Below are positions 1 through 24,618 of a stretch of DNA of 64,000 nucleotides, in pieces. The notes beneath the pieces were generated by a model that ran no database searches, was not told the origin of the DNA, and saw only the letters and a list, made by a program, of their open reading frames with translations. This stretch comes from Balneola sp. Lineage in GTDB: Bacteria; Bacteroidota; Rhodothermia; Balneolales; Balneolaceae. The position numbers and the translations under genes were made by a program. The DNA lies in NCBI GenBank assembly GCA_002696035.1, contig NZQV01000005.1, positions 1 to 64,000 of the forward strand, in the 5' to 3' direction. Each line of letters begins with the position of its first letter. Position 1 is the stretch's first letter.

Positions 1-162
1 AGAAAATCCGGCAGCATCGTCTTCGGCGCGATTGATTCGCAGACCGGTTGACATACGTAACTGATTCTCTGATTGTGCCTTGTTTATTTTGTTAAGGGAT
101 AGCTGTGCGTCCAAAGACTGCACATTGGTATTTACTCTGTTTAGATCGCCAAAACTCGCCAT
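1..162 (-). CDS. Flagellin, N-terminal part (cut by window edge)
   Basis: The reverse strand reads open from an ATG at 162 to the window edge and gives 54 residues beginning MASFGDLNRVNTNVQSLDAQ. It contains the flagellin D0/D1 signature LRMSTGLRINRAEDDAAGFS, so this is the start of a second flagellin gene, the subunit of the extracellular filament. An AAAGGTG Shine-Dalgarno lies about 7 bases upstream of the ATG, and a sigma-28 promoter lies at 229-256. The gene is divergent from the flagellin at 585. The rest of the protein is outside the window. Confidence 0.93.
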   Translation of the reverse strand, partial: MASFGDLNRVNTNVQSLDAQLSLNKINKAQSENQLRMSTGLRINRAEDDAAGFS

Positions 163-228
163 AATGATTCACCTTTTGAGTTTGTTGTGGTTTCTTGCTT
201 TATGCTTTTTAGCGTTTGGTTACCACAG

Positions 229-584: not shown

Positions 585-2432
585 ATGGTTTTTGGAGATA
601 TGAACCGCATTCGCACGAATAACTCGGGAATGCATGCACGACTTTCACAATATAAACTCAACATTCGTTTAGAAAATACGATGGCCCGGTTAAGTACCGG
701 AAAAAGGCTGAACAAAGCAGAAGACGGAGCCGCCGGCTTAAGTATCTCAAATAAATTAAGTGCCCGGCTTACAGGATTAAATTCCGCCTTAAATAACATT
801 GAACATTCCAAAGAAATACTATCTATTGCTGATACCTCCTATCAACAAACGGTTGATCAGCTTATAGAAATGAAATCCTTGGTCACCCGAGCAGTTAGCG
901 ATACGGTTGGGGAGGATGAAAAGGAATACCTTCTGATGCAGGTTGAAAAACTTGGAGATGAAATCAATTCAATTGCAAATCAGGCAGTTTACCAAGGTAC
1001 CGAACTGTTGAATGGCAAAGATGACGCCTTCATTCATCCTAAAAAATTAACCGCTATGACCGGAGAACGATCCGAAGACCTGCTATCTATGGAACTTCCT
1101 CCAGTAAATCTGACCAAACTGTTTGAAGGCTCCAATCATTTAATTGGCACAGGGAGCAGAAGTTATTTTTACAGTGAATTTTATGCCGGATTATGGAACA
1201 GACGTGAACCAGATCAACTCATGACCCAAACTGAGGGAATTACCAGCACGGCTGAATTAACAACAGATATCGGTGAAACAGCCAAAAAAATGGAAATCAC
1301 CGTTAATGGCACAACTACCTCACATAATATTGGTGATTTTACTGAAACACCAAGCAACTTGGACCTTCATAATATTTCTGCAGCCGTAAATAATGCTGGT
1401 ATAGCCAGATTGACTGCAGAAGTTGATTCCGGAGAAATTAAATGGACCAATAAGTCTGACCAGGATATTACGGTTGAAATCTTAAACAACACAGACAGTC
1501 CGGTTGGGATTGACCCTATAACAATTTCAGCCGCGGAAGTTATTGAGAAAGTCCGTGTTACCGTTGGTGGCACCCCGCAAGAAGCTGCTCTATCCACTCC
1601 TCAAGTAGGAGATCCCGATATCACCGTCTTTGCAGATGCTATTGAGAGTTTAAATATTGACGGTTTGTCTTCTTATGTGATAGATGAATATAATCCTGAT
1701 GAATTGGGCGTTCACAGTACAAGTTTTGAGGACATCGAAATTGAGTTTTTGAACAGCGACGGAAATGTAGCGGATGTAACTACTTTCAATATGTTATCAC
1801 CCAAAGCAAATCAGGTAACCGTAACGGGGCCGGACGGCAGCACCACTTCGCCGATTACGGAATATACCGGCTACCCCGATCCTGACTGGTACCCTCCGGT
1901 GGACGAATACATGCATGAATATGAACAAATCATCAACGACATGGAGGTTGAAGGATTCTGGGCTACTTATGATGAAGAGTTTCAGCGCTTGATCATCAAT
2001 AATGTAACGGAAGATGATTACACTCTTACCGTTGGAAGCGACACCCCTGGAACGCCCGGGATTTCCCCAAAAGTGTCAGAAGCACCGGATGAATTAATGC
2101 CTCAAGGGAAACTATATTTTGGTCGCGCTGGCAGTGATCTTGCCAGTGATGAGTCACTGCGTGTTTTCATGCGGGAATTGGATCACGCTATAGGTGATAT
2201 GACCGCCCACATGAATACCCTTGGAAGTATCCAACAAAGTCTGAATAGCCGACGAGAGCTGGTTTCTTCTTCCATCATCAGCAACAGCACGGCCCGAAGC
2301 CGAATCATAGATGCTGATTTTGCAAAAGAACAATCAAAACTGATTCGGCTGCAGATACTGCAACAAACAAACTCAGCCAGCCTCGCTCAGGCAAATATGG
2401 GGCCGAAATCTGTTTTGGGATTTTTGGAGTGA
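585..2432 (+). CDS. Large flagellin (615 aa)
   Basis: This is a filament subunit. Residues 1-145 form the conserved N-terminal D0/D1 helices (MARLSTGKRLNKAEDGAAGLSIS region) and the last 95 residues form the C-terminal helices, ending in SLAQANMGPKSVLGFLE. The 370 or so residues between are rich in Thr, Asp and Pro and should form surface-exposed D2/D3 domains. At 615 residues it is much longer than minimal flagellins of about 270. The ATG at 585 follows an AGGG purine tract and a sigma-28 promoter. The gene runs convergently into the putative flagellin-modifying gene at 2470-7632. The number of exposed Ser and Thr residues fits O-linked modification, but that is inference. Confidence 0.95.
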   Translation: MVFGDMNRIRTNNSGMHARLSQYKLNIRLENTMARLSTGKRLNKAEDGAAGLSISNKLSARLTGLNSALNNIEHSKEILSIADTSYQQTVDQLIEMKSLVTRAVSDTVGEDEKEYLLMQVEKLGDEINSIANQAVYQGTELLNGKDDAFIHPKKLTAMTGERSEDLLSMELPPVNLTKLFEGSNHLIGTGSRSYFYSEFYAGLWNRREPDQLMTQTEGITSTAELTTDIGETAKKMEITVNGTTTSHNIGDFTETPSNLDLHNISAAVNNAGIARLTAEVDSGEIKWTNKSDQDITVEILNNTDSPVGIDPITISAAEVIEKVRVTVGGTPQEAALSTPQVGDPDITVFADAIESLNIDGLSSYVIDEYNPDELGVHSTSFEDIEIEFLNSDGNVADVTTFNMLSPKANQVTVTGPDGSTTSPITEYTGYPDPDWYPPVDEYMHEYEQIINDMEVEGFWATYDEEFQRLIINNVTEDDYTLTVGSDTPGTPGISPKVSEAPDELMPQGKLYFGRAGSDLASDESLRVFMRELDHAIGDMTAHMNTLGSIQQSLNSRRELVSSSIISNSTARSRIIDADFAKEQSKLIRLQILQQTNSASLAQANMGPKSVLGFLE

Positions 2433-2469: not shown

Positions 2470-5400
2470 TCAATCTTGATATTTATATATATAAAAATCA
2501 GCAAATGAGGTCTTTAACCCATCGCCATCAAAAGGATACTTATTTTTGATTTTTTTTATAAGCTTCCAATTTGGTTTATTGTCTCCAACCCATTTCGTAA
2601 ACTCACGATGCTTTACATGCACATTTTCAGTAGCTGAATCTTTATTAGAAGAGTATATAATTACTATTTTTCTCGAGGCATTAAATAATTCATTCATGTA
2701 ATCATAATAAACTTCTTCTTCTATTAAATGATAGATAACATCTAAAGACATTGAACAATCAGCAGTTTCTCCGTTATAATCATTAAGAACTTTGAATTCT
2801 TTTAATGCATCTCTATGATACAATCTTATACATTTCTCAACTGCCAATTCACTTACATCTATTCCCAGGTACTTGATAGGTTTAAAGTATTTAAGTTGAT
2901 TACCGTCTCCTGAACCAAATTCAATAATTGAGTTAATGTCATATTTCTCGATTATTGAATTAATAACTTCTGATTTAAACTGGGCTAATCTTCCATAGGA
3001 TCCAGCCCCAGAGTTACCTCCTTTTATATACCGGGACTTCCAATAATCTTTAGATGAAAATTTATCTTCTTTTTTATTAACCCTAAAGACACTCCCATAG
3101 AAGTTGGTTAAATTATTTATCTGTTCATCATTTTTTCCATTTACTAAATTCTCTTTCCACAACGTATTGTGATTTTCCTGCTTCCATTCTATAAGTTTAT
3201 GCTCGAAGCGGCTCACTTTGAATTTTCCACCATTCATTTTCACCATAAAATAGAGCCAAACATCATCTGCGGTGGGCGACAATCTTTGAAATAACTCAGT
3301 ATCAGTTACATCATTATGGAAAATCCCAGGGGGATAGAGGGTTCCCGCTCCTGAAGTAGGAAAATTCAATTCAGACGGTTCAAAACTTTCCCGATACTGC
3401 CATCCCCATTCCTTGTACGGTTTTAACTCTCCATTCTGTTTGAAAGATATTCTATGAGCTCTATGAGCTATCACCGTTTCATTATTCTCATAATCTCTTA
3501 CTAATCCTTCCACCCATCTTTTATTATAATACAGATCGTCATCTGCTGTAATGATAAAGGCATCAGGATGTAACTTTAATGTAGGAATGATCTTTTTATA
3601 GGATTTCAAGTCTTCACAAAACTGAATCTCTACTCCATATTCTTCAAATTGAAGAATTTCTTTGTCTAAAGCATTCTTATCTCCATTAGCAATCCACAAT
3701 ATAATTCTGTCTGGTTTTACTGTTTGATTTATTAGACTTAAGAGTGTAAGTGGTAAATTTTCGAACCGGTCAGGATAAGATGTAAATGAGACAATAAGTT
3801 CTCCAGGAAGATCATGTGAAAATGTTCTTTCTGGGCCATTCTTATTGATCATATTCACCATTGAATTGAAGTAACTACTTCGTTTCGAAGTGAAGGAGGT
3901 TTTTTTGAGATTAGTATCCTCCAAAAGATCACTAATACTACTAAAATTTTTCTCACCATCTTTTAAATACTGTGTTATTCTACTTGCCTGGTATACAATT
4001 TTACAAACCTCTGGATTCCCCTCCAACACCTCAATCAACTTCCGCTCCTGTGGACCACTCAAATACGTGGTCCAATCCTTGAGTAGGATCCAAGCTTCTA
4101 CGGTTTTCACCATCAGCCATTTGTTGACTTCAGTTTTGATAGCGGCTTTATCTTGCTCGGAAATCGGCAGCATAAATGGCAACTCCACATTCATGTTTTG
4201 CTGCCCCATATTGGTGGTTTCGATCAGCTTTTTCAGGATCTCGACCGCTTGCCCTCGTTTCCCTAACGCGTTTAGCGTACGCACCAGCGTGAATACCACC
4301 GAAGTACTGTTTCCTCCCTGATTGTATAAACCGATGAGGATCTGAGCTGCATTCAGTAATAAAACGGCCTTTTGGCTTCGTGGCTGTTCCAGATCTGAAT
4401 TTCGGACCTCAATTTGCTCCGCTGCGATCACATAATTCAGTGCCTGCAGGTAGAGATTGATCCCTTCAGAATCTCCGTGGTTTTCCCATTGCACAAATAA
4501 TTCGCTGGTCCACGGAAGATTCGATAGTTCGGTTTTCCACAGATCGTTCGCTGTTTGCTGTGCCTCCACAGTTTCATCGTGCAACCAGCCGTTTTCTTTG
4601 AGTTCATCAACTCGAGATTCATGCACGGCGATCAAGTTCTGCATATATGGATCTGCTCCGGCTTCCACGTCGTGTTGGGCAAGAATTCCAGGTCCGGGTA
4701 TGTATTCATAGAAAGCATATCCCAATTCAGATAAACTACCGATGAACGTGTTCGAATTCTTTTCGGTAATGGATAGCAAGAGCAGTGGTTTTTCTGTTTC
4801 CAGCAACTGCTTGCCTCCTTCCAAAGCTGAAGCTTCTTCACCGTTGATGTCTATTTTCATCACATCCACTGCCGGCTCACCTTCAAACTGCCACCAGCTA
4901 TCCAATGTAACCACCTGAACTTCTTCTTCACCGGATTCATCCAGCTTATTCATTTCGGGCGTTTCAGCTATTTCCCAGGTAGATTTTCCGGCTTTGGCTG
5001 CAACGGCTTTACTGATTATTTCCAGGTTTTCAAGACCATTTTCCAACTTACTTTTTTCAAGGTGGGATTTTGCGATCGCCCCCGGCTCAAAAGAATACAC
5101 CTTCCCTTCATTCCCTATCAGTTTGGCAGCAGGTAGAGCATAAACGCCAAATCCGGCTCCTATATCCACGAAATTCATTCCGGTTTTCAGGTAATCCCGA
5201 ATGAAATCCAGCTCATTTTCGTACCACTCGTTTTGCTCAAGCAGCACGTAGGGTGTCATCATTTTCAGGTCCGGCGGCGTGCAGATCGTGACACCATCTT
5301 TGGTCTTAATTTTATAGGTATCAGGCTCTTCCTGCTTTTTTGATGCCCCATTTTGGTGTGATGCGTGACCGTTTGAAGTGCCGTTTCCGTTGATAATATT

Positions 5401-7632
5401 CTTGGCTTTTTGTGCCACTTCCCTGGTCTCTTTTTTCAGGAAATCTGATTCAATCTCATCCACTTGCTCCATCGCATCTTTTCGTTTTTTGGAGCGATCA
5501 AGATCTTCTTCATTTATCGGAGTGACCTCAATATGATCTTGCCAATCACCTTCGGGAAGATTCTCTTCATAACCTTTCACACGCTGTGTCCACATTTCCC
5601 GGAATGCATTCGACAGATGGGCTCCAAATCGCTCGCCATCACAAACAGGAGAATTCGCCACTTTTTCGCGAATTCCGGTTCTGATCTCTGCAAGATTTCC
5701 GGTGTCGGATGCAAGCTCTACGGCTTTTTCGATATATTTGTCCCATGTATCGACGATCCACTCCGGGAATCCGGCATTTTGTAAATGTGTGGCTGAATGT
5801 CGCCCGGCAAAAGTAGGTCCGGGTTTGGTGATCACCGGAACGCCCATCCAAAGAGCCTCGCAGGTGGTCAGTCCACCCGAGTATGGCCACGGATCGAGCG
5901 CAATATCCACAGAATTGTAGCTTCCAAGCAGTTCATCATGCGGTGACTGCCCTTCAAACTTCAGTCTTTCTTCGGAGATGCCACACGCTTTCATAGTTTC
6001 AATAATGCGCTCGCGAAGGACTTCCGTATCGTATTGTTTGCTCTTCAGAAACAACTTACTTTTGGGTACCCGGTTCATGATCTCAGCCCACTTTTCCAGA
6101 ATCTCGTCGTTTACCTTCGTGGGATTGTTGAAGCATCCAAAGGTTATATAGTCCTTTTCTTTAGCGGGAAGTGCTGCTACATCAGGGGCGTATTCCGGCG
6201 GCAAGAAACAGATATAATCATCTGGCATGCGCACCAGTTTTTCGGTGTAAAATTCTTCTTCACCGGCAGGGGTTTCCTGATGGTCGGTGATCAAATAATC
6301 AACCGATTTCAATCCGGTCGTGTTAAACAAACCGCCCACCCATTTCACGATAACGGGAGTCGGTTCCAGAGCAACGGTTTTCAATCGCGTGTCGGCAGAG
6401 TGACCGGAAAGTTCCACCAGGATATCTATCTCATCTTCACGGATCATCCTGGCTATCACTTTATCATCATACCCGATCACGGACTGCCACTTGTCTGTAG
6501 CGGCGTGAATTTTTTTTGTGATCTGATCGTAGCGATTATGCGTAGTGTAGCAATAGGTTTCAAACTGATCTTTAGGCAGGTTTTCCAGCGCCTTGGTGAT
6601 CATCCAGCCCACGGGATGGGTTCGGAAACCGCCTGAAATAAATCCGACTCTTAGTTTCTTATCAACCGCAGTATTGAATGGAATTGGACGCGCAGGACGC
6701 TCAGCCGGGGCAAAATTCTGGTCCCACAGTTTATGCTCCTCAAAGATCTCCTCTTTTGTGCTTTTGGGATTGTAATGCAGTCCCATCAGGTAATTTGAAA
6801 GCGACTCAAATTCGGTTGGAGCATCCTCAAATGCCTGTAGATAATTTTTTTCTGATTCTTCAAATTCCCCCAATTCCTGCATGCAGAGCGCATAATTCAT
6901 CCGTGCACCTGCCATTTTGGGATACTGTTCTATCAATCGCTTATACAGCTCGATCGCCTTTTCATAATTTCCCTCATGTTTATGCAGCTCTGCCAGCAAC
7001 ACTTTGGCTGGCACATTTCGAGGCTCCAGCGAAAGCACTTCATAGATCGTGTCCTCAGATTCGCGATATTTATTCTGTTTCTTCAGAATATCGGCCTTTG
7101 CCAGATAGGCATTCAGATAGCCCTTATCGATCTTTAAAGTAATGTTGAACAACTCGAGTGCTTTGTTGAGATCGCCCTGATCATTGTAGATCTCTCCGAT
7201 CCTGTAGGCCACACTCGCACTGGAATTATCAATTTGATTGGCTTTTTGAAAGCACTTCAGGGCATCATCCAGTTTGGCCTGTGCCCGATACAATGATCCT
7301 AAATGCAGCCATCCTTTAAAGAATTCCGGATTTCGGTCCAGCGCTTTATTCGCATACTCTTCCGACTCTTCATACTGCCCCATATTAAAATAGCAGATGG
7401 AGATAGCATGATATGTTTCCGGCTCATCACTTCCCTGACTTAATGCTTCGTTCAAAAACGAAAGGGCCATGCCATACTCCCCCTTTTGCACAAAGGCGAT
7501 CCCTGAAAAATGGAAGGCCGGCCAGGGCGCATTTTTCTTATTTACGATGGGCTGCAACAGCTTCATTGCCTCATCCGTTTTCGGCTTTTTTAAATTGAGC
7601 AGGGCCTGGGCTTTTGCGAGATTTGCTTTCAA
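2470..7632 (-). CDS. Multi-domain TPR/OGT-like glycosyltransferase, FkbM methyltransferase, GT-A and methyltransferase fusion
   Basis: The 1720 residues divide into: TPR repeats (about 1-300); a GT41/SPINDLY-like O-GlcNAc-transferase domain (about 327-690; VGFISGGFRTHPVG, SGHSADTR, YSGGLTTCEALWMGVPV); a low-complexity Asn/Gly linker (745-770); a FkbM-type SAM methyltransferase (about 770-960; VDIGAGFGVY at 821-830); a helical region (1010-1240); a GT-A glycosyltransferase (about 1277-1500) with a DDD motif at 1364-1366; and a class I methyltransferase (about 1530-1720; IIEFGSGDGNQ at 1569-1579). It most likely glycosylates and methylates flagellin in the cytoplasm before export; acceptor and sugar are unknown. 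The start is a TTG without a clear Shine-Dalgarno, since an in-frame TGA lies three codons upstream; Met22 is an alternative. A sigma-54 promoter lies at 7733-7748. The last 500 or so residues are encoded by clearly more AT-rich DNA. Confidence 0.88.
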   Translation of the reverse strand: MKANLAKAQALLNLKKPKTDEAMKLLQPIVNKKNAPWPAFHFSGIAFVQKGEYGMALSFLNEALSQGSDEPETYHAISICYFNMGQYEESEEYANKALDRNPEFFKGWLHLGSLYRAQAKLDDALKCFQKANQIDNSSASVAYRIGEIYNDQGDLNKALELFNITLKIDKGYLNAYLAKADILKKQNKYRESEDTIYEVLSLEPRNVPAKVLLAELHKHEGNYEKAIELYKRLIEQYPKMAGARMNYALCMQELGEFEESEKNYLQAFEDAPTEFESLSNYLMGLHYNPKSTKEEIFEEHKLWDQNFAPAERPARPIPFNTAVDKKLRVGFISGGFRTHPVGWMITKALENLPKDQFETYCYTTHNRYDQITKKIHAATDKWQSVIGYDDKVIARMIREDEIDILVELSGHSADTRLKTVALEPTPVIVKWVGGLFNTTGLKSVDYLITDHQETPAGEEEFYTEKLVRMPDDYICFLPPEYAPDVAALPAKEKDYITFGCFNNPTKVNDEILEKWAEIMNRVPKSKLFLKSKQYDTEVLRERIIETMKACGISEERLKFEGQSPHDELLGSYNSVDIALDPWPYSGGLTTCEALWMGVPVITKPGPTFAGRHSATHLQNAGFPEWIVDTWDKYIEKAVELASDTGNLAEIRTGIREKVANSPVCDGERFGAHLSNAFREMWTQRVKGYEENLPEGDWQDHIEVTPINEEDLDRSKKRKDAMEQVDEIESDFLKKETREVAQKAKNIINGNGTSNGHASHQNGASKKQEEPDTYKIKTKDGVTICTPPDLKMMTPYVLLEQNEWYENELDFIRDYLKTGMNFVDIGAGFGVYALPAAKLIGNEGKVYSFEPGAIAKSHLEKSKLENGLENLEIISKAVAAKAGKSTWEIAETPEMNKLDESGEEEVQVVTLDSWWQFEGEPAVDVMKIDINGEEASALEGGKQLLETEKPLLLLSITEKNSNTFIGSLSELGYAFYEYIPGPGILAQHDVEAGADPYMQNLIAVHESRVDELKENGWLHDETVEAQQTANDLWKTELSNLPWTSELFVQWENHGDSEGINLYLQALNYVIAAEQIEVRNSDLEQPRSQKAVLLLNAAQILIGLYNQGGNSTSVVFTLVRTLNALGKRGQAVEILKKLIETTNMGQQNMNVELPFMLPISEQDKAAIKTEVNKWLMVKTVEAWILLKDWTTYLSGPQERKLIEVLEGNPEVCKIVYQASRITQYLKDGEKNFSSISDLLEDTNLKKTSFTSKRSSYFNSMVNMINKNGPERTFSHDLPGELIVSFTSYPDRFENLPLTLLSLINQTVKPDRIILWIANGDKNALDKEILQFEEYGVEIQFCEDLKSYKKIIPTLKLHPDAFIITADDDLYYNKRWVEGLVRDYENNETVIAHRAHRISFKQNGELKPYKEWGWQYRESFEPSELNFPTSGAGTLYPPGIFHNDVTDTELFQRLSPTADDVWLYFMVKMNGGKFKVSRFEHKLIEWKQENHNTLWKENLVNGKNDEQINNLTNFYGSVFRVNKKEDKFSSKDYWKSRYIKGGNSGAGSYGRLAQFKSEVINSIIEKYDINSIIEFGSGDGNQLKYFKPIKYLGIDVSELAVEKCIRLYHRDALKEFKVLNDYNGETADCSMSLDVIYHLIEEEVYYDYMNELFNASRKIVIIYSSNKDSATENVHVKHREFTKWVGDNKPNWKLIKKIKNKYPFDGDGLKTSFADFYIYKYQD

Positions 7633-7732: not shown

Positions 7733-7748
7733 TGCAAATAGGATGCCA
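7733..7748 (-). promoter_or_regulatory. Sigma-54 promoter of the flagellin-modification gene
   Basis: The reverse strand reads TGGCATCCTATTTGCA, which has the GG-N10-GC spacing and the TTGCA -12 box of RpoN promoters. The leader to the TTG at 7632 would be about 90 bases. Confidence 0.82.
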
Positions 7749-7997: not shown

Positions 7998-8014
7998 ATG
8001 GCATACTAATTGCA
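7998..8014 (+). promoter_or_regulatory. Sigma-54 promoter of fliS-fliD
   Basis: The sequence ATGGCATACTAATTGCA has GG-N10-GC spacing and near-consensus -24 and -12 boxes. It starts 5 bases after the sigma-28 -10 box and about 65 bases before the fliS ATG. Confidence 0.82.
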
Positions 8015-8078: not shown

Positions 8079-8390
8079 ATGGAGAATGCACAACTTGCTT
8101 ACCAGAAACAATCGGTAATGGATGCATCGCCACTTAAGTTAGTGGTTAAGATGTATGATCTTGCCATTCAGGCATCTTACCGTGAGGATAATCAGAAAGT
8201 GCGGGATATTTTATCCACGCTTATAGCCGGACTCGATTTCGAGCACAAACCGGCCGATCAGTTGTTTGAGCTGTACCGCTATTGTCAGGAGCTGGCCCGT
8301 AAAGGTAAGTTTGAGGAATTCCGCGAGATCCTGGAACCTCTCCGCGACACCTGGGAAGAAGCCGCTAACCAAGCCATCGCTGCCAAGTAA
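8079..8390 (+). CDS. fliS: FliS-like flagellin export chaperone
   Basis: This 103-residue all-helical protein begins with the FliS pattern YQKQSVMDASPLKLVVKMYDLAI. FliS binds the C-terminal helix of flagellin in the cytoplasm and prevents premature assembly. It is slightly shorter than the usual 120-130 residues. It lies directly upstream of fliD, its common partner in operons, and behind tandem sigma-28 and sigma-54 promoters. Confidence 0.85.
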   Translation: MENAQLAYQKQSVMDASPLKLVVKMYDLAIQASYREDNQKVRDILSTLIAGLDFEHKPADQLFELYRYCQELARKGKFEEFREILEPLRDTWEEAANQAIAAK

Positions 8391-8411: not shown

Positions 8412-9815
8412 ATGAGTTCCATCCAAAATTTATTCCAACAGACTAATCCTTATGAAAAGTTCGTCGTTCAGCTTGTAGAACTGGAGAGTCAGCAAAAGTA
8501 TAAGCTGGAAGCACAGCGGGATACACAGGATGAGCAAAAGAAGGCACTCGGCGATGTAAGTTCCTCGATCTCAGAATTCATTTCCAAAATTGATGAAATA
8601 TCGGAACCGAATAACAAACCTTTTTCGGCTTTAAGCACCGAATCATCTGATGAGTCTATCGTACGGATGAACTCTGCCACCGGCATTAGTCGGGAGTCCA
8701 ATTATAATTTAGACATCGAGCGCATTGCCACCAGAGATACACAGCTTTCACAATTAACAACCGGCTCGGCTACCGATCTTTCCGGATTTGGAACCGGCAC
8801 CGTTGATATCACCATTGGCGATAAAACAGAGACCATCACCGTTGAAACACAAAAGGATGATGGCACCGGAACCATGGTGGATATGACCAACGAGGAGATC
8901 TTACGTTCCTACGCTGATGCCATCAACGTCGCTTTCGGCGAAGAAGCTCAGGCAAGTGTCTTCAAAACAAAGGACGACGAATTTCAGCTTTCCATATCAA
9001 GTCTTGAAACCGGTTCAGCGAATAAAATTGAAATGAACGGAGCAACCGGTGTGCTCACAGAAATTAATGCCGGGTTGAACCGAATGGTACCCGAAGCAGA
9101 ATTGGATGCCAAATTCACCATCGACGGAGTCACTTTCACCCGAAGCAGCAACACGGTGGATGATGCCATCGAAGGCCTGGATTTTACTTTACTGAAGGGC
9201 GGAAATTCGCAGGCGAGTATGTCGGTCACCAAAGATCTGGAGTCCTCGAAAGGCAACATCGAAGATTTTATCGACAAGTTTAATGAGATGAACCGGATCA
9301 TCCGCAGCCGGACTTTTATTGATGGCGAAAGCGGGAATAAAGGGCCATTGCAAGGGATGCGCTCCATCCGGAATTTAAGTATCAACCTTCGCATGACGGG
9401 AATAAATTCCCTCTCAGGCGCCGGCACCGATCAGTTAGACAGCCTTAGCGATATGGGCATTTCTTTTGAGAATAATGGTAATATGATCATTGACGACGAA
9501 GACAAACTAATGGAAGCCCTCAACGAAAGATCAGATGAAGTAATGACGTTCTTCTCATCGGAAAATTCACCGATCGCCCAGATGAAATCACAGGCAGAAA
9601 CTTATACAAAGTCGGGTGGGTTAATTTCATCCCTTGAAAGTGGCATTGATCAGAAGATCGACCGACTGGATCGCCGGATTGCCTCCGAAGAGCGATACCT
9701 TGAAGGCTATGAAGAACGTCAGCGCCAGCAGTTTAACGAATTACAGTTGATCATTGCACAAGGAGAAGAGCAGTATAATAAAGTCATGAGTTTCCGTAGC
9801 AGCATGGGATTCTGA
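8412..9815 (+). CDS. fliD: FliD filament cap protein
   Basis: This 467-residue protein has the FliD_N region (residues 1-100, with SSSISEFISKIDEI) and a C-terminal FliD_C region including GLISSLESGIDQKIDRLDRR followed by a long coiled coil. FliD forms the pentameric filament cap that guides flagellin polymerisation. The gene starts 21 bases after fliS and is the second gene of the fliS operon. Confidence 0.92.
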   Translation: MSSIQNLFQQTNPYEKFVVQLVELESQQKYKLEAQRDTQDEQKKALGDVSSSISEFISKIDEISEPNNKPFSALSTESSDESIVRMNSATGISRESNYNLDIERIATRDTQLSQLTTGSATDLSGFGTGTVDITIGDKTETITVETQKDDGTGTMVDMTNEEILRSYADAINVAFGEEAQASVFKTKDDEFQLSISSLETGSANKIEMNGATGVLTEINAGLNRMVPEAELDAKFTIDGVTFTRSSNTVDDAIEGLDFTLLKGGNSQASMSVTKDLESSKGNIEDFIDKFNEMNRIIRSRTFIDGESGNKGPLQGMRSIRNLSINLRMTGINSLSGAGTDQLDSLSDMGISFENNGNMIIDDEDKLMEALNERSDEVMTFFSSENSPIAQMKSQAETYTKSGGLISSLESGIDQKIDRLDRRIASEERYLEGYEERQRQQFNELQLIIAQGEEQYNKVMSFRSSMGF

Positions 9816-10925: not shown

Positions 10926-12347
10926 ATGAAGAAATCGGTTTTAGTTGTTGACGACGATGAATTGCTACTTGAATTCCTGGAGGAATTAATTGCCGGCGAG
11001 GGATTCAATGTTTCTGCATTTAGCAACCCTTCTGAAGCCATGCAGGCTCTCGACAAAGACCCTGTGGACTTGGTTATAACCGATGTAAAAATGAATGAGA
11101 TGACCGGTGATGAGGTCCTCAAGCATGTAAAAGTAAACCATCCCAACACCGGCGTGATCATGATCACCGGGTTTGGGAATATCAATCACGCAGTACGGGC
11201 TTTGCATAAAGGTGCTTTCGATTATGTAACCAAGCCCTTTAAAGGCAAAGAATTTCTATATCGTATTAACCGGTATTTTGATGAAGATTCCGGCCTGCAA
11301 ACGCCGGCCCGCAAAGCAGAGTCGGCTCCATCCCCGGCCCAGAAAAAAGCCAGTGCCGCAAAAGAAAAGGTAAGTCCGGCCGACAAATCCGACCATCCGG
11401 ACAACAGATTCGTCGGCGAAGATCCTCAGATCAAAAAATTAATGCGCATCATTCCGCAGATCGCAAAAAATGTAGCCCCAGTGTTAATTCAGGGAGAAAG
11501 CGGAACAGGTAAAGAAGTGTTTGCTCATCAAATTCATGTTAACAGTGATCGTTCTGAGGCTCCTTATATAAAGATAAATTGCGCGAATCTGCCTTCAGAA
11601 TTGGTAGAGAGCACTCTTTTCGGCCATGTGAAAGGAGCCTTTACCGGAGCCATCTCTGATCGTGAAGGAGCTTTTGATGCCGCACAAGGCGGAACCCTTT
11701 TACTGGATGAGATCACCGAGATCGACATCAAGGTACAGGCCAAGTTATTGCGTGTTTTACAGGAAAATGAATTTTACCGTGTGGGAAGCCAAAAGCCGAT
11801 CAAGGCAGATGTTCGAATTCTTGCAACATCGAACCGAAACATTGCTGAGGCCATTGCCGAGAAGCAGTTTCGGGAAGACCTTTATTACCGATTGAATGTG
11901 TTCCCGATTGAAATTCCCCCACTCCGGCAGCGCAGAAGTGATATTCCCCTGCTGGCTAATCACTTTGTGGAACATTACAGCAAGCAGTATGGCATTGAAC
12001 CCAACCCCATTTCCGGTGAATTAATGGAACAACTTGTTTCCAGAGAGTGGCGCGGAAATGTTCGGGAGCTGAATAACAAGATCCACCGTGGCGTTATTTT
12101 ATCGCAGGATGATGAGGAGATCAACAGCGAGCATATTGATAACGATATGTTCTCGAACGTAGACGATAATCTTACCGAAGAAGTACTGAGTAACGCCGAT
12201 CTGCCTTTAATGTCGATAGAGGAAATGGAGCTTAAGATGATCCGCAAAGCCCTCGATCACACCGGCGGCAATCAAAAGGAAGCAGGTAAACTGCTGGGTA
12301 TTTCGGATCGCACTATTCGTAATAAACTGAAGGAAGATCAGTCCTGA
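10926..12347 (+). CDS. Sigma-54-dependent response regulator (FlrC/FlgR-like)
   Basis: This 473-residue NtrC-family activator has a receiver domain (1-120; phospho-acceptor Asp53, TKPF switch lysine), an Ala/Pro/Lys-rich linker, an AAA+ domain (about 162-400) with Walker A GESGTGKE at 190-197 and the sigma-54-contacting GAFTGA loop at 237-242, and a C-terminal Fis-type helix-turn-helix. Placed between flgM and flagellar structural genes, it is the likely activator of the sigma-54 promoters found here. The kinase at 47922 is a candidate partner. No sigma-28 or sigma-54 promoter was seen in front of it, so it is probably transcribed by the housekeeping sigma. Confidence 0.92.
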   Translation: MKKSVLVVDDDELLLEFLEELIAGEGFNVSAFSNPSEAMQALDKDPVDLVITDVKMNEMTGDEVLKHVKVNHPNTGVIMITGFGNINHAVRALHKGAFDYVTKPFKGKEFLYRINRYFDEDSGLQTPARKAESAPSPAQKKASAAKEKVSPADKSDHPDNRFVGEDPQIKKLMRIIPQIAKNVAPVLIQGESGTGKEVFAHQIHVNSDRSEAPYIKINCANLPSELVESTLFGHVKGAFTGAISDREGAFDAAQGGTLLLDEITEIDIKVQAKLLRVLQENEFYRVGSQKPIKADVRILATSNRNIAEAIAEKQFREDLYYRLNVFPIEIPPLRQRRSDIPLLANHFVEHYSKQYGIEPNPISGELMEQLVSREWRGNVRELNNKIHRGVILSQDDEEINSEHIDNDMFSNVDDNLTEEVLSNADLPLMSIEEMELKMIRKALDHTGGNQKEAGKLLGISDRTIRNKLKEDQS

Positions 12348-12407: not shown

Positions 12408-13754
12408 CTATGCTACTTTTGTTGCCAGTTTGCGGGCTTTTTCGATACGATTTGTCTTCACGGAAGTCACGATCAGGCGACGTTTGAAATCATCGTTCTC
12501 AGGAAATTGCTCGTGCAGTTCCTCGTAGATATTATGCACCGGCTCATACCACTGATTCTCCATAAAAAGCGTGGTAAAGTCGGTGAGCTCTACCCTGTTT
12601 TGCTCATCAAGTTCTTTGTTTGATATCATGTTACCGAAGCGTTTTCCGAAGTAGAATTTGGCTTTTTTGAGATCGCCCAATTCCGTACACAGCAGCAAGA
12701 TCTTTTTCAGAAAGCTTTGGTCTACATCGCCATTCTTTATGGCAAACAGCTCATCCAGATGTTCCGAAGCTCGGGCTCGCTTTCCGGCTTTTAAAGCCAG
12801 ATCAGATAAATTCACCAGCGTTTCCTCTTCACTTATAATTACATCAAAGTTAGCGGCGGATTGCAGGTCGAACCTCCCGTAGTATTCACCGAGGGCCTCG
12901 TATGCTTCCTCCCAGCGTTGCTGGAGTGAATAGATCCGGTATTTGATAAGGTAGGGCAGATTCTGAAATGGTTCTGCTTCCAGCGACTGCTGAGCTACAT
13001 TCAGCGCTTTTTGCCATTTATACTGCTCTGCCAGGCAGCTCGCAATTCCATTCACTGCTCCCAATCTGTCAAAGGGCAACAGTCGCTCTCTCTTTAGTAA
13101 CTGCCGGAATTGAGCGGTGGCATACACATATTCTTTTTGCTGTAGGTAACGCTGACCTTCAACCAGATATACCTGCGGTGCAAAATCCTGAATCCCTAAT
13201 TCGGTAGCCGAATCGATCTGTGTAACCGGACTTTCTTTACGCTCCACCTGAATGTGAGCATTCGAAACCTGTACATTATTTTCGATCACGTAGCGGGTAC
13301 AATCAGGCAGCTCTCTTCCCCCAAAAACATTTATGGCTGAGCCCGGAATAAATCGCATTTGGTAGAGTTGAACCTCCACATCCCGTTCTTTCCATTTCAT
13401 TAATGCCGGCGGCCAGCAGGTTTCACTGATCTCCTCATTGGATGGAAAATCTAAAAACTTGAGGTTTTCACCTGCCTCCAGAAACAACACCCATTCAGCT
13501 TCACTTTTCGCAAGCTGTGCATTCCAGATATCGGCTTTGTATTGTCCGGATGGCACCTTCACCCAGTTTACATCCAGAGTTTCAGGTTTTGAAATTGACA
13601 TCGGAGCCAGTACTGTGACTTTATGGAAAATGTCAGACCATTTTTTAAGATGATCCAATTCCTGAATTTGCTCATCTGAAAGATGTAGTACCACTTCTGC
13701 CCAAGACAGGCTTTTGGTGGGATTTTCCAGGGAAAGGGTTGGCATTGTTTTCAT
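12408..13754 (-). CDS. TPR protein with degenerate glycosyltransferase-2-like N-terminus
   Basis: This 448-residue protein has an N-terminal half (1-190) that looks like a reduced GT-A fold: WAEVVLHLSD followed by EWVLFLEAGE (87-96), where active family members have a DAD/DxD. Residues about 195-445 are TPR-like helical repeats. It follows flgL in the same direction with only a short gap, so it is probably the last gene of the flgF-flgL operon. It may be an inactive glycosyltransferase scaffold or part of flagellar protein modification; the family is not certain. Confidence 0.6.
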   Translation of the reverse strand: MKTMPTLSLENPTKSLSWAEVVLHLSDEQIQELDHLKKWSDIFHKVTVLAPMSISKPETLDVNWVKVPSGQYKADIWNAQLAKSEAEWVLFLEAGENLKFLDFPSNEEISETCWPPALMKWKERDVEVQLYQMRFIPGSAINVFGGRELPDCTRYVIENNVQVSNAHIQVERKESPVTQIDSATELGIQDFAPQVYLVEGQRYLQQKEYVYATAQFRQLLKRERLLPFDRLGAVNGIASCLAEQYKWQKALNVAQQSLEAEPFQNLPYLIKYRIYSLQQRWEEAYEALGEYYGRFDLQSAANFDVIISEEETLVNLSDLALKAGKRARASEHLDELFAIKNGDVDQSFLKKILLLCTELGDLKKAKFYFGKRFGNMISNKELDEQNRVELTDFTTLFMENQWYEPVHNIYEELHEQFPENDDFKRRLIVTSVKTNRIEKARKLATKVA

Positions 13755-22461: not shown

Positions 22462-24618
22462 ATGGCACTTGCCGGACTAAATCCCAAAGCACTAAAAGGA
22501 ACATTTTTCCAGCCAGACGTACTTATTTCCTCCAGCATCATTATGATCTTACTGATCATGATCATTCCTGTACCTACCGGAATGATGGATATATTTCTGG
22601 CGCTGAATGTCTCTCTTTCCCTTATCGTACTTTTGGTGGCTTTCTATACTTTAAAGCCGCTGGAGTTTGCCGTTTTCCCCGGTATGCTTTTGATATTGAC
22701 ACTATTCCGGCTGGCGCTGAACGTGGGGACTACCCGGCTGATTTTGGCTGAAGGATATGCCGGCTCCATTATTGAATCTTTTGGGGGATTTATAGTTCAG
22801 GGAAATTTCGTGATCGGGATCATCATATTCTCGGTGCTCGTGATCATCAACTTTGTGGTAATTACCAAAGGTTCAACCCGTATTGCTGAAGTGGCCGCCC
22901 GCTTTACCCTGGATGCCATGCCGGGTAAGCAAATGTCGATCGATGCCGACCTGAGTGCCGGACTTCTCACCGATCAGGAGGCCAAAAAGAAACGAGAAGA
23001 TATTGCCCGCGAGGCCGATTTTTACGGAGCTATGGATGGGGCCAGTAAATTTGTGCGGGGTGATGTAATTGCGGGCCTGCTCATCACCTTTATAAATATC
23101 ATCGGTGGGCTGATCATCGGAACGGTGCAGCTTGGGATGCCCATTGGAGAAGCCGCTGCCCAGTATACCTTGATGACCATTGGTGACGGACTTGTATCAC
23201 AGATCCCGGCCCTTTTGATCTCTACCGCTGCCGGTATTATTGTATCGCGTGCAGCCAGTGAAGGCGACCTGAGTAAGGAACTGCAAACCCAGCTGATGGG
23301 TAATCCCAAAACCATGGTGATCGGTTCCTTCTTTGTATTTTTACTTGCACTAACCCCCGGACTTCCTTTCGTGCCTTTTGCTATGATCGGCGGATTCTTT
23401 CTCTTTATGGCATACAGCGGGCTCAAAAAAGAAGAAGAGGAACAGCACGAACAACAGGCAGCAGAAGAGAATAAAGCCATTGAAGGCAAGAAAGAAGATC
23501 CTGTAGAAAATTATTTACTGGTTGATACACTTGAACTCGAGATCGGCTACAGTTTGATTCCCATGGTGGAAGCAAATCAGGGCGGTGACCTGCTGGAGCG
23601 AATGACATCACTGCGGAAACAGCTGGCCTCAGAGTTGGGCATCATTGTGCCTTCCATTCGTATTCGGGATAATGTGCAGCTCGATGCCAATCACTACACC
23701 ATAAAAATGAGAGGCATTCAGCAGGGCCAGGGAGAAGTTCTGCCCGGCTACCACCTTACGCTGCTTCCACAAGATTTTAAACCAGACATTCAGGGCATTG
23801 AAACAAAAGACCCGACCTTTGGCATGGATGCCATCTGGGTAAGCGGGAAAAATAAATCTCAGGCTGAGAAGTACGGACTTTCCGTGATCGAGGCCGGGGC
23901 CGTTATCACCACGCACCTGATGGAAGTACTGAAGAAAAATGCCTATAAGCTTGTGGATCGCCAAATGGTAAAACGCCTGATCGACAACATCAAAGAACAG
24001 TCGCCCGCACTGGTTGAGGAACTTGTGCCCGATGCCATGAAAGTTGGGGATATCCAGAAAGTGCTGAAACGTTTGCTTCGTGAGCGCATTCCTATTAAGG
24101 ACTTGAATACCATTATGGAAACGCTGGCCGATCAGATCACACAAACCCAAAATACCGATGTACTGAACGAATACTGCCGGGCGGCTTTATCAGAAACCAT
24201 CACCAAACAATTTACGACAGAGCAAAACCAGGTAGTGGTGACCATGATGGATTCCAATCTTGAATCTCACCTCATTTCCCAGGCCCAGCAAGGAAACCTG
24301 AATAGCAACACGCTCGGACTTACACCAGATACCGTAGAAACCATTTACCAGAATGCCTCTTCCCTTTTTGATAAGATGATCCGTGAAGGATACGAGCCGG
24401 TATTGCTCACCTCACCCATCCTGAGATTCACCATGTTTGAATTTCTGGCACCAATATTGCCAGATATAAATGTGCTGTCGTACAACGACATAAGTCAAGA
24501 TGTGCAATTCAAGACATTCGGACGATTGAAGCTTGAGAAGGAAGCCCCTTTTGAAGGAGCTCCGGTTCAGGCGCAACAGGAACCAGTAGTACAAACTGAA
24601 GAACCCGTTACGGTATGA
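22462..24618 (+). CDS. flhA: FlhA export gate protein
   Basis: This 718-residue protein has the N-terminal FHIPEP membrane domain with about eight hydrophobic segments (VFPGMLLILTLFRLALNVGTTRLIL, DAMPGKQMSIDADLSAGL) and a large cytoplasmic C-terminal domain. FlhA is the nonameric export gate that docks chaperone-substrate complexes. The length is typical. Its end overlaps the flhF start in an ATGA. Confidence 0.97.
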   Translation: MALAGLNPKALKGTFFQPDVLISSSIIMILLIMIIPVPTGMMDIFLALNVSLSLIVLLVAFYTLKPLEFAVFPGMLLILTLFRLALNVGTTRLILAEGYAGSIIESFGGFIVQGNFVIGIIIFSVLVIINFVVITKGSTRIAEVAARFTLDAMPGKQMSIDADLSAGLLTDQEAKKKREDIAREADFYGAMDGASKFVRGDVIAGLLITFINIIGGLIIGTVQLGMPIGEAAAQYTLMTIGDGLVSQIPALLISTAAGIIVSRAASEGDLSKELQTQLMGNPKTMVIGSFFVFLLALTPGLPFVPFAMIGGFFLFMAYSGLKKEEEEQHEQQAAEENKAIEGKKEDPVENYLLVDTLELEIGYSLIPMVEANQGGDLLERMTSLRKQLASELGIIVPSIRIRDNVQLDANHYTIKMRGIQQGQGEVLPGYHLTLLPQDFKPDIQGIETKDPTFGMDAIWVSGKNKSQAEKYGLSVIEAGAVITTHLMEVLKKNAYKLVDRQMVKRLIDNIKEQSPALVEELVPDAMKVGDIQKVLKRLLRERIPIKDLNTIMETLADQITQTQNTDVLNEYCRAALSETITKQFTTEQNQVVVTMMDSNLESHLISQAQQGNLNSNTLGLTPDTVETIYQNASSLFDKMIREGYEPVLLTSPILRFTMFEFLAPILPDINVLSYNDISQDVQFKTFGRLKLEKEAPFEGAPVQAQQEPVVQTEEPVTV

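Follow-up and report, generated by a model that had tools for sequence, protein, structure and literature searches.

A 1720-residue protein in a flagellar gene cluster

The window, by which we mean the whole 64,000-nucleotide stretch of DNA analysed here, carries on its minus strand a gene (2470..7632) for a protein of 1720 amino acids. The protein is encoded in one unbroken open reading frame (7632..2470) that opens with TTG, with an in-frame TGA three codons 5′ of this start. Related genomes repeatedly contain single open frames that share its first ~1205 residues, so the frame is neither a chance opening nor a sequencing fusion, and the single-chain protein proposed in a preliminary description of this DNA is confirmed. 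It is the only GT41 gene that we found in the window's own genome.

The neighbours of the gene are flagellar. A flagellin gene (585..2432, plus strand; PF00669 and PF00700), whose product is the proposed substrate, converges on it across 37 bp. On the divergent side lie fliS (8079..8390, plus; PF02561), fliD (8412..9815, plus; PF07195 and PF02465), two small open reading frames (ORFs) and a gene for a sigma-54 activator with a receiver domain (10926..12347, plus; PF00158 and PF00072). Past the activator, on the opposite strand, come a 448-residue TPR-repeat protein (12408–13754, minus), flgL and then an ORF that we take, from its sequence, to be flgK. The 448-residue protein is present in 34 of the 92 family genomes, exactly the 34 that have FliD, a distribution that marks it as an unnamed flagellar gene. 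Positions 1–163 (minus) encode the beginning of another flagellin, truncated at the contig end, and in L047 ORFs that overlap flagellin loci match this translation.

The 64-kb window has five matches to a strict sigma-54 pattern, two of them between the 1720-residue gene and fliS: TGGCATCCTATTTGCA (7733..7748, minus) stands 116 bp 5′ of the gene's start codon, and TGGCATACTAATTGCA (7999..8014, plus) stands before fliS. Further strict sites lie at 24446 (plus) and 47688 (minus), and the same scan of the window found no strict consensus before the flagellin gene at 585–2432. The preliminary description had set the gene against a flagellin gene and its sigma-54 promoter; the convergent flagellin neighbour stands, but the strict sites precede the 1720-residue gene and fliS, not flagellin. 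The best upstream sigma-54 site was better than shuffled sequence (p ≤ 0.05, by simple letter shuffles) in 20 of 31 homologues, among them a doubtful one far upstream at −293 (G016).

Domain organization of the chain

All parts of the protein are encoded on the minus strand and are given here from the N terminus. Residues 1–300 (6733..7632) form a TPR domain, with repeats over the cut-offs of Pfam TPR families along about this whole length, for which a role in flagellin docking is proposed by analogy with FlmG. A SPINDLY/OGT-like GT41 transferase follows (residues 301–690, 5563..6732; PF13844, 145.4 bits against a cut-off of 25), and then a variable low-complexity tether (residues 691–770, 5323..5562; G+C 42.9%). 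The core FkbM methyltransferase (residues 771–1015, 4588..5322), with the SAM motif VDIGAGFG at 822, is over the cut-off both for PF05050 (51.8 bits) and for NCBIfam TIGR01444 (72.5 bits). The constant core ends with a spacer defined by alignment and predicted to be helical (residues 1016–1205, 4018..4587), after which comes the junction motif NPE (residues 1206–1208, 4009..4017). A model of FkbM plus spacer reached a pLDDT of 90.6, and its FkbM part has a methyltransferase fold (Z 16.1, rmsd 3.4, 169 residues aligned); the fold matches listed span model residues 1–239 only, barely cover the spacer and gave no named relative for it.

Beyond the junction, residues 1251–1520 (3073..3882) form a putative GT-A, or GT2-like, transferase with a DDD motif at 1364–1366 (3535–3543). 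Its match to Glycos_transf_2 (PF00535) scores 23.2 bits, just under the cut-off of 23.3, and the equivalent GT2 module passes in two full-length homologues (G018 and G019; 26.1 and 24.7 bits), in which Methyltransf_11 is also over the cut-off for this module; the DDD motif is retained in all three proteins. The C-terminal domain (residues 1521–1720, 2473..3072), with EFGSGDG at 1571, gave weak methyltransferase matches below the Pfam cut-offs, and its predicted model has a class I methyltransferase fold, matching NodS (3ofk_B; Z 18.8, rmsd 2.7, 184 aligned) over residues 320–515 of a model of the C-terminal 515 residues. This methyltransferase part took up both fold-match lists for the module, with no GT-A entries among the matches listed, and a sequence search of the PDB with the same 515 residues gave nothing up to E 0.1.

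The preliminary description had counted four enzymes in the chain, to be checked by domain search and structure prediction. These bear out the TPR domain and three of the enzymes, GT41 and FkbM by Pfam and the last methyltransferase by predicted fold; the putative GT-A is borderline, lying below its cut-off in a module modelled at a pLDDT of 65.8. The key motifs of all four enzyme domains are intact.

Distribution follows the flagellum

Matches to the window protein at E ≤ 0.001 occur in 88 of the 92 family genomes, mostly through the TPR domain alone. Only 28 of the 92 have a strong match (E 7e-183 or better), and each of these is a genome with FliD: 28 of the 34 FliD-positive genomes, against none of the 58 FliD-negative ones; a protein from a genome without FliD (G038; 33% identity, E 7.6e-120) was set aside from this tally and from the locus counts below. 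The FliD-positive genomes that lack a strong match are G037, G043, G053, G082, G086 and G088. Across 244 genomes of the class, alignment of the spacer puts the core of TPR, GT41, FkbM and helical spacer in 27, every one from a single order: 20 belong to the same family as the window genome and 7 to three other families.

Of the 33 loci whose upstream sequence can be read, spacer-less forms included, 32 have the gene divergent to fliS; G084 (at a contig start, with no upstream sequence), G087 (a short stretch) and G038 are outside this count. The exception is G017, where the gene diverges from that of the sigma-54 activator and has fliS and fliD on its other flank. With the sigma-54-like site, the FliD tally and this arrangement bear out the earlier claim that a multi-enzyme protein is tied to the flagellum.

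Although 169 plasmid records matched the core, none covered 80% of it. The best plasmid match comes from Azospirillum lipoferum, where a TPR protein and FkbM are encoded by separate genes next to one for GDP-L-fucose synthase; in this 18-kb stretch no flagellar gene is annotated (the plasmid gene table is incomplete). As TPR and FkbM are separate there and no flagellar gene is annotated, we do not count that locus as the same arrangement.

A constant core joined to varying tails

Homologues align throughout over the first ~1205 residues, and homology ends at an N-x-E motif. Beyond it, the 26 spacer-bearing proteins with readable tails (G033, which meets a contig end, was dropped) show 12 tail architectures. 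The window protein shares its GT-A transferase and methyltransferase with G018 and G019. Other tails consist of a GT56 domain (G022, G031 and G032), a PF13524 GT-B domain (G012, G075 and G125), a GT2 domain with PF13524 (G010, G011 and G015), a GT2 domain with a further part that has no family name (G091), a second FkbM domain (G009, G014, G016, G017, G096 and G102) or another FkbM (G060). G062 and G103 carry a kinase-like part, called below the Pfam cut-offs, and a nucleotidyltransferase-like part named by eye. G104 combines a methyltransferase, a kinase and a part that looks by eye transferase-like; G109 has an APH kinase and a weak methyltransferase; and the tail of G118, by eye GT4-like, is incomplete at a contig end. 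The last, a GT2 tail (G047), was read from a second contig (L096), which we take to continue the protein, since the 98 residues with which it opens match residues 1103–1200 of the window protein and the chassis, as we call the constant part, stops at its contig end at residue 1140.

A blastp comparison of 25 modules at 1e-5 (that of G047 is absent from the set) sorted them into 8 connected groups. One group links FkbM and kinase-like tails only through a 35-residue stretch with which the trimmed modules start; read as leftover spacer, this link leaves about nine module families unrelated in sequence.

Close relatives show how sharp the junction is. The window protein and its counterpart in Gracilimonas mengyeensis (G022), from the same genus as the window genome, have cores that are 72.5% identical and different tails, and identity collapses at the junction: at the nucleotide level it is 76% in the 15 codons before, 48% across and 33% after. 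Same-tail control pairs (G019 with G018, and G009 with G016) show no drop there. Other pairs with close cores and different tails are G103 and G104 (78.8%; left out of the nucleotide comparison, as its profile is not centred on the motif), G012 and G011 (75.2%), one of which gains a GT2 domain, and G019 and G014 (74.9%). Downstream of the G. mengyeensis gene (L034:12841–18782; the same region is in L003), ORFs read by eye as acetyltransferases, a DegT aminotransferase, an acyl-activating enzyme, an SDR and a methyltransferase resemble a viosamine-type flagellin island.

In some relatives the chain is divided. In four genomes (G023, G024, G026 and G029), a chassis of 974–975 residues, made of TPR, GT41 and then directly, without spacer, a tail-type FkbM, adjoins a separate TPR-GT56 protein of 561–564 residues. 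The chassis FkbM of G026 is 46–53% identical to six FkbM tails and 27% identical to the window's core FkbM. Residues 1–170 of the G026 TPR-GT56 protein are 54.7% identical to its own chassis TPR, against 31.4% to the TPR of the window protein. From this one comparison, we read the detached GT56 module as probably re-addressed to the same client by a copy of the chassis TPR. Two further genomes (G083 and G084) have TPR-GT41 alone, in proteins of 691–700 residues beside flagellin genes, probably the simple form.

Departures of other kinds were also seen. G015 (L045:1277–4021) and G010 (L049:808–3552) carry an extra 914-residue protein in which FkbM and spacer are followed by a PF13524-like tail, without TPR-GT41. 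In G060 (L053:1919–6151), whose tail is an FkbM domain, the core FkbM lacks its SAM motif and has a long alignment gap, and is thus probably dead.

The GT41 donor site and candidate sugar donors

The donor-site residues of the window GT41 domain are H339, N503, K506, K530, Y584 and E592. Equivalents of SPINDLY (SPY) N662, K665, K689, Y744 and E752 are all present in 34 of 35 homologous proteins, an invariance that makes the first transfer look fixed, while later steps vary. K506 corresponds to K665, described as essential for SPY (PMC9715652, PMC10027727), and is conserved in all 35 aligned proteins. In SPY-type enzymes as described, K689, A731 and Y744 replace OGT L866, R904 and C917 (PMC10027727). 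The equivalents of K689 and Y744 favour a GDP-sugar over UDP-GlcNAc as donor. The A731 position is S in the window protein and A, C, S, T, K, E, H or R among homologues; the positions of S496, T747 and T748 are P, G and L.

Which sugar this might be was approached through the genomes' donor pathways. GDP-fucose as the common donor is weakened, not settled: gmd is over the cut-off in 43 of the 92 family genomes, while among the 20 spacer-bearing ones of this family it is over the cut-off in 14 and not in the other six, two of which are only 82–84% complete; the changes at S496, T747 and T748 weigh in the same direction. Pseudaminic or legionaminic acid is unlikely as a common donor, as NeuB, found in 36 of the 92 genomes including the window's own, is present in 8 of the 20 and was not found in 12. 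A search for GDP-mannose guanylyltransferase (TIGR01479) was uninformative, with no genome over the cut-off and partial matches in all 92. In the window's genome (G000), gmd and neuB are adjacent (contig C1:1708–3586).

The preliminary description had called the enzyme self-contained, and here it has to be corrected: the protein makes no donor sugar, and its GT-A and methyltransferase half is an exchangeable module present in 3 of the 26 spacer-bearing homologues.

History of tail exchange

On a core tree of 30 tips in 13 tail classes, 18 module changes are needed, where the minimum is 12. Shuffled labels needed 22.3 on average, and none of 200 shuffles came as low as 18; tail labels are thus clustered on the tree, which makes inheritance part of the story. 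Tail G+C is below that of the protein's own core in all 18 proteins measured (32.6% against 46.5% in the window protein). In 28 same-class pairs, modules are about as diverged as cores, with differences from −17 to +10.5 points, which dates exchange as old and gives no support to the idea that modules recently moved horizontally among the species sampled. Judged by these comparisons, tail exchange is old and partly inherited.

Proposed mechanism and alternatives

We think it likely that the protein is a cytoplasmic enzyme of flagellin O-glycosylation, built from a constant chassis and an exchangeable tail. Flagellin is suggested as the substrate by the locus and by FlmG. The TPR domain, if it works as in FlmG, would bind flagellin before export. 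The GT41 domain would then place the first sugar on Ser/Thr, perhaps from a GDP-sugar, and the core FkbM domain would O-methylate the glycan. The helical spacer, ending at the fixed NPE junction, would carry the tail module of each lineage; in the window protein, the GT-A transferase would add a second sugar and the last methyltransferase would cap it. The first reaction would be constant across the bacterial order and the later glycan structure would be set by the module; the donor, the order of steps and the methyltransferase targets are those that the domains suggest. For the fuller picture, a single-chain assembly line for flagellin glycans with C-terminal enzymes swapped at one junction and a copied chassis TPR to re-address a module encoded separately, we judge the balance to tip slightly in favour.

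The tail might instead act elsewhere, be it on free nucleotide sugars, on a surface polysaccharide or on a flagellar protein other than flagellin, and be fused to a flagellin-modifying chassis only for co-expression. Free-standing relatives of the GT-A domain (in G062, G022 and G041) and of the methyltransferase (in G003 and G006), encoded elsewhere in family genomes, would fit such a role, as would the kinase-like character of certain tails. Yet the fusion is at one place in all 26 readable spacer-bearing proteins, and the detached GT56 modules of four relatives have a TPR of their own, which in G026 so closely copies that of the chassis that it points to the same client; we hold this separate role for the tail to be unlikely. 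A flagellar position that is merely incidental, with the protein a general cytosolic O-glycosyltransferase and SPINDLY-like regulator, is harder still to credit: plant SPINDLY is the best PDB match (E 2.4e-99), but the strict company of fliS and FliD, the sigma-54-type site and the tailoring enzymes in the same chain make this very improbable.

A different objection concerns history, namely that nothing was exchanged and that an ancestor with several tails, in one longer protein or in paralogues, lost them differentially. The two enzymes in the tails of G010, G011 and G015, the extra 914-residue proteins retained in G010 and G015, the clustering of tail labels and the similar divergence of same-class modules and cores are all compatible with loss. 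Against it, an ancestral chain with about nine unrelated module families is implausible, modules begin no more than a few residues from one shared motif and the lower module G+C fits acquisition. We give differential loss little credence and retain exchange at the junction as the preferred account.

Discussion

From one bacterium to the next, flagellin glycans differ widely, and the differences are usually told in terms of the gain and loss of whole gene islands. Here the same diversity may arise within one protein, which keeps the portion responsible for finding flagellin and for the first sugar and exchanges the finishing enzyme at a fixed joint. If so, lineages would alter their flagellar glycan by a domain swap instead of a gene-island swap, and exchanged tails could explain species-specific flagellar sugar coats. 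Having both parts in one gene makes it testable which of them sets flagellin specificity and which sets the glycan, and the forms from TPR-GT41 proteins of 691–700 residues up to chains of 2068 residues are a natural fusion series for glyco-engineering.

Several known systems share parts of this design. Arabidopsis SPINDLY, an O-fucosyltransferase, has TPR and GT41 as in the window protein (PMC10027727, PMC9715652); the equivalents of K665, K689 and Y744 are common to both, S496, T747 and T748 differ, and SPINDLY is without fused tailoring enzymes. The bacterial TPR-GT41 OGT of Thermobaculum terrenum (5djs; E 2.9e-88) has the HPV motif in common with the window protein but an isoleucine at the K689 position, and likewise no tailoring domains. 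In the Klebsiella O-antigen enzymes, as described, catalytic modules occur in varied organisation, so that glycan-building modules are arranged differently in related systems, but their client is the lipopolysaccharide O antigen and not a protein (PMC11231755).

Closer to flagellin, TPR-GT41 enzymes such as FlmG and GT41-methyltransferase proteins in flagellin islands are already known. The enterobacterial islands, reported as highly variable and bearing marks of horizontal transfer, hold SPINDLY-type GT41 with methyltransferase domains beside the flagellin gene (De Maayer and Cowan 2016, PMC4875605), and the combination that the preliminary description called unusual is to that extent already published, leaving the claim half right. 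As those islands are described (PMC4875605), they vary by gene content, whereas the present family varies by its C-terminal module. We found no description in the open-access literature of a constant core with exchangeable tails. FlmG of Caulobacter crescentus acts in the cytoplasm and, like the window protein, has an N-terminal TPR domain followed by an OGT-like transferase; as described, the TPR domain binds flagellins, the C-terminal transferase modifies them with a pseudaminic acid donor, and both domains are needed (PMC7591256). The window protein differs in what follows GT41, a methyltransferase, a spacer and an exchangeable tail, and the FlmG-like layout, TPR and GT41 in a flagellar locus, recurs in the short forms of G083 and G084.
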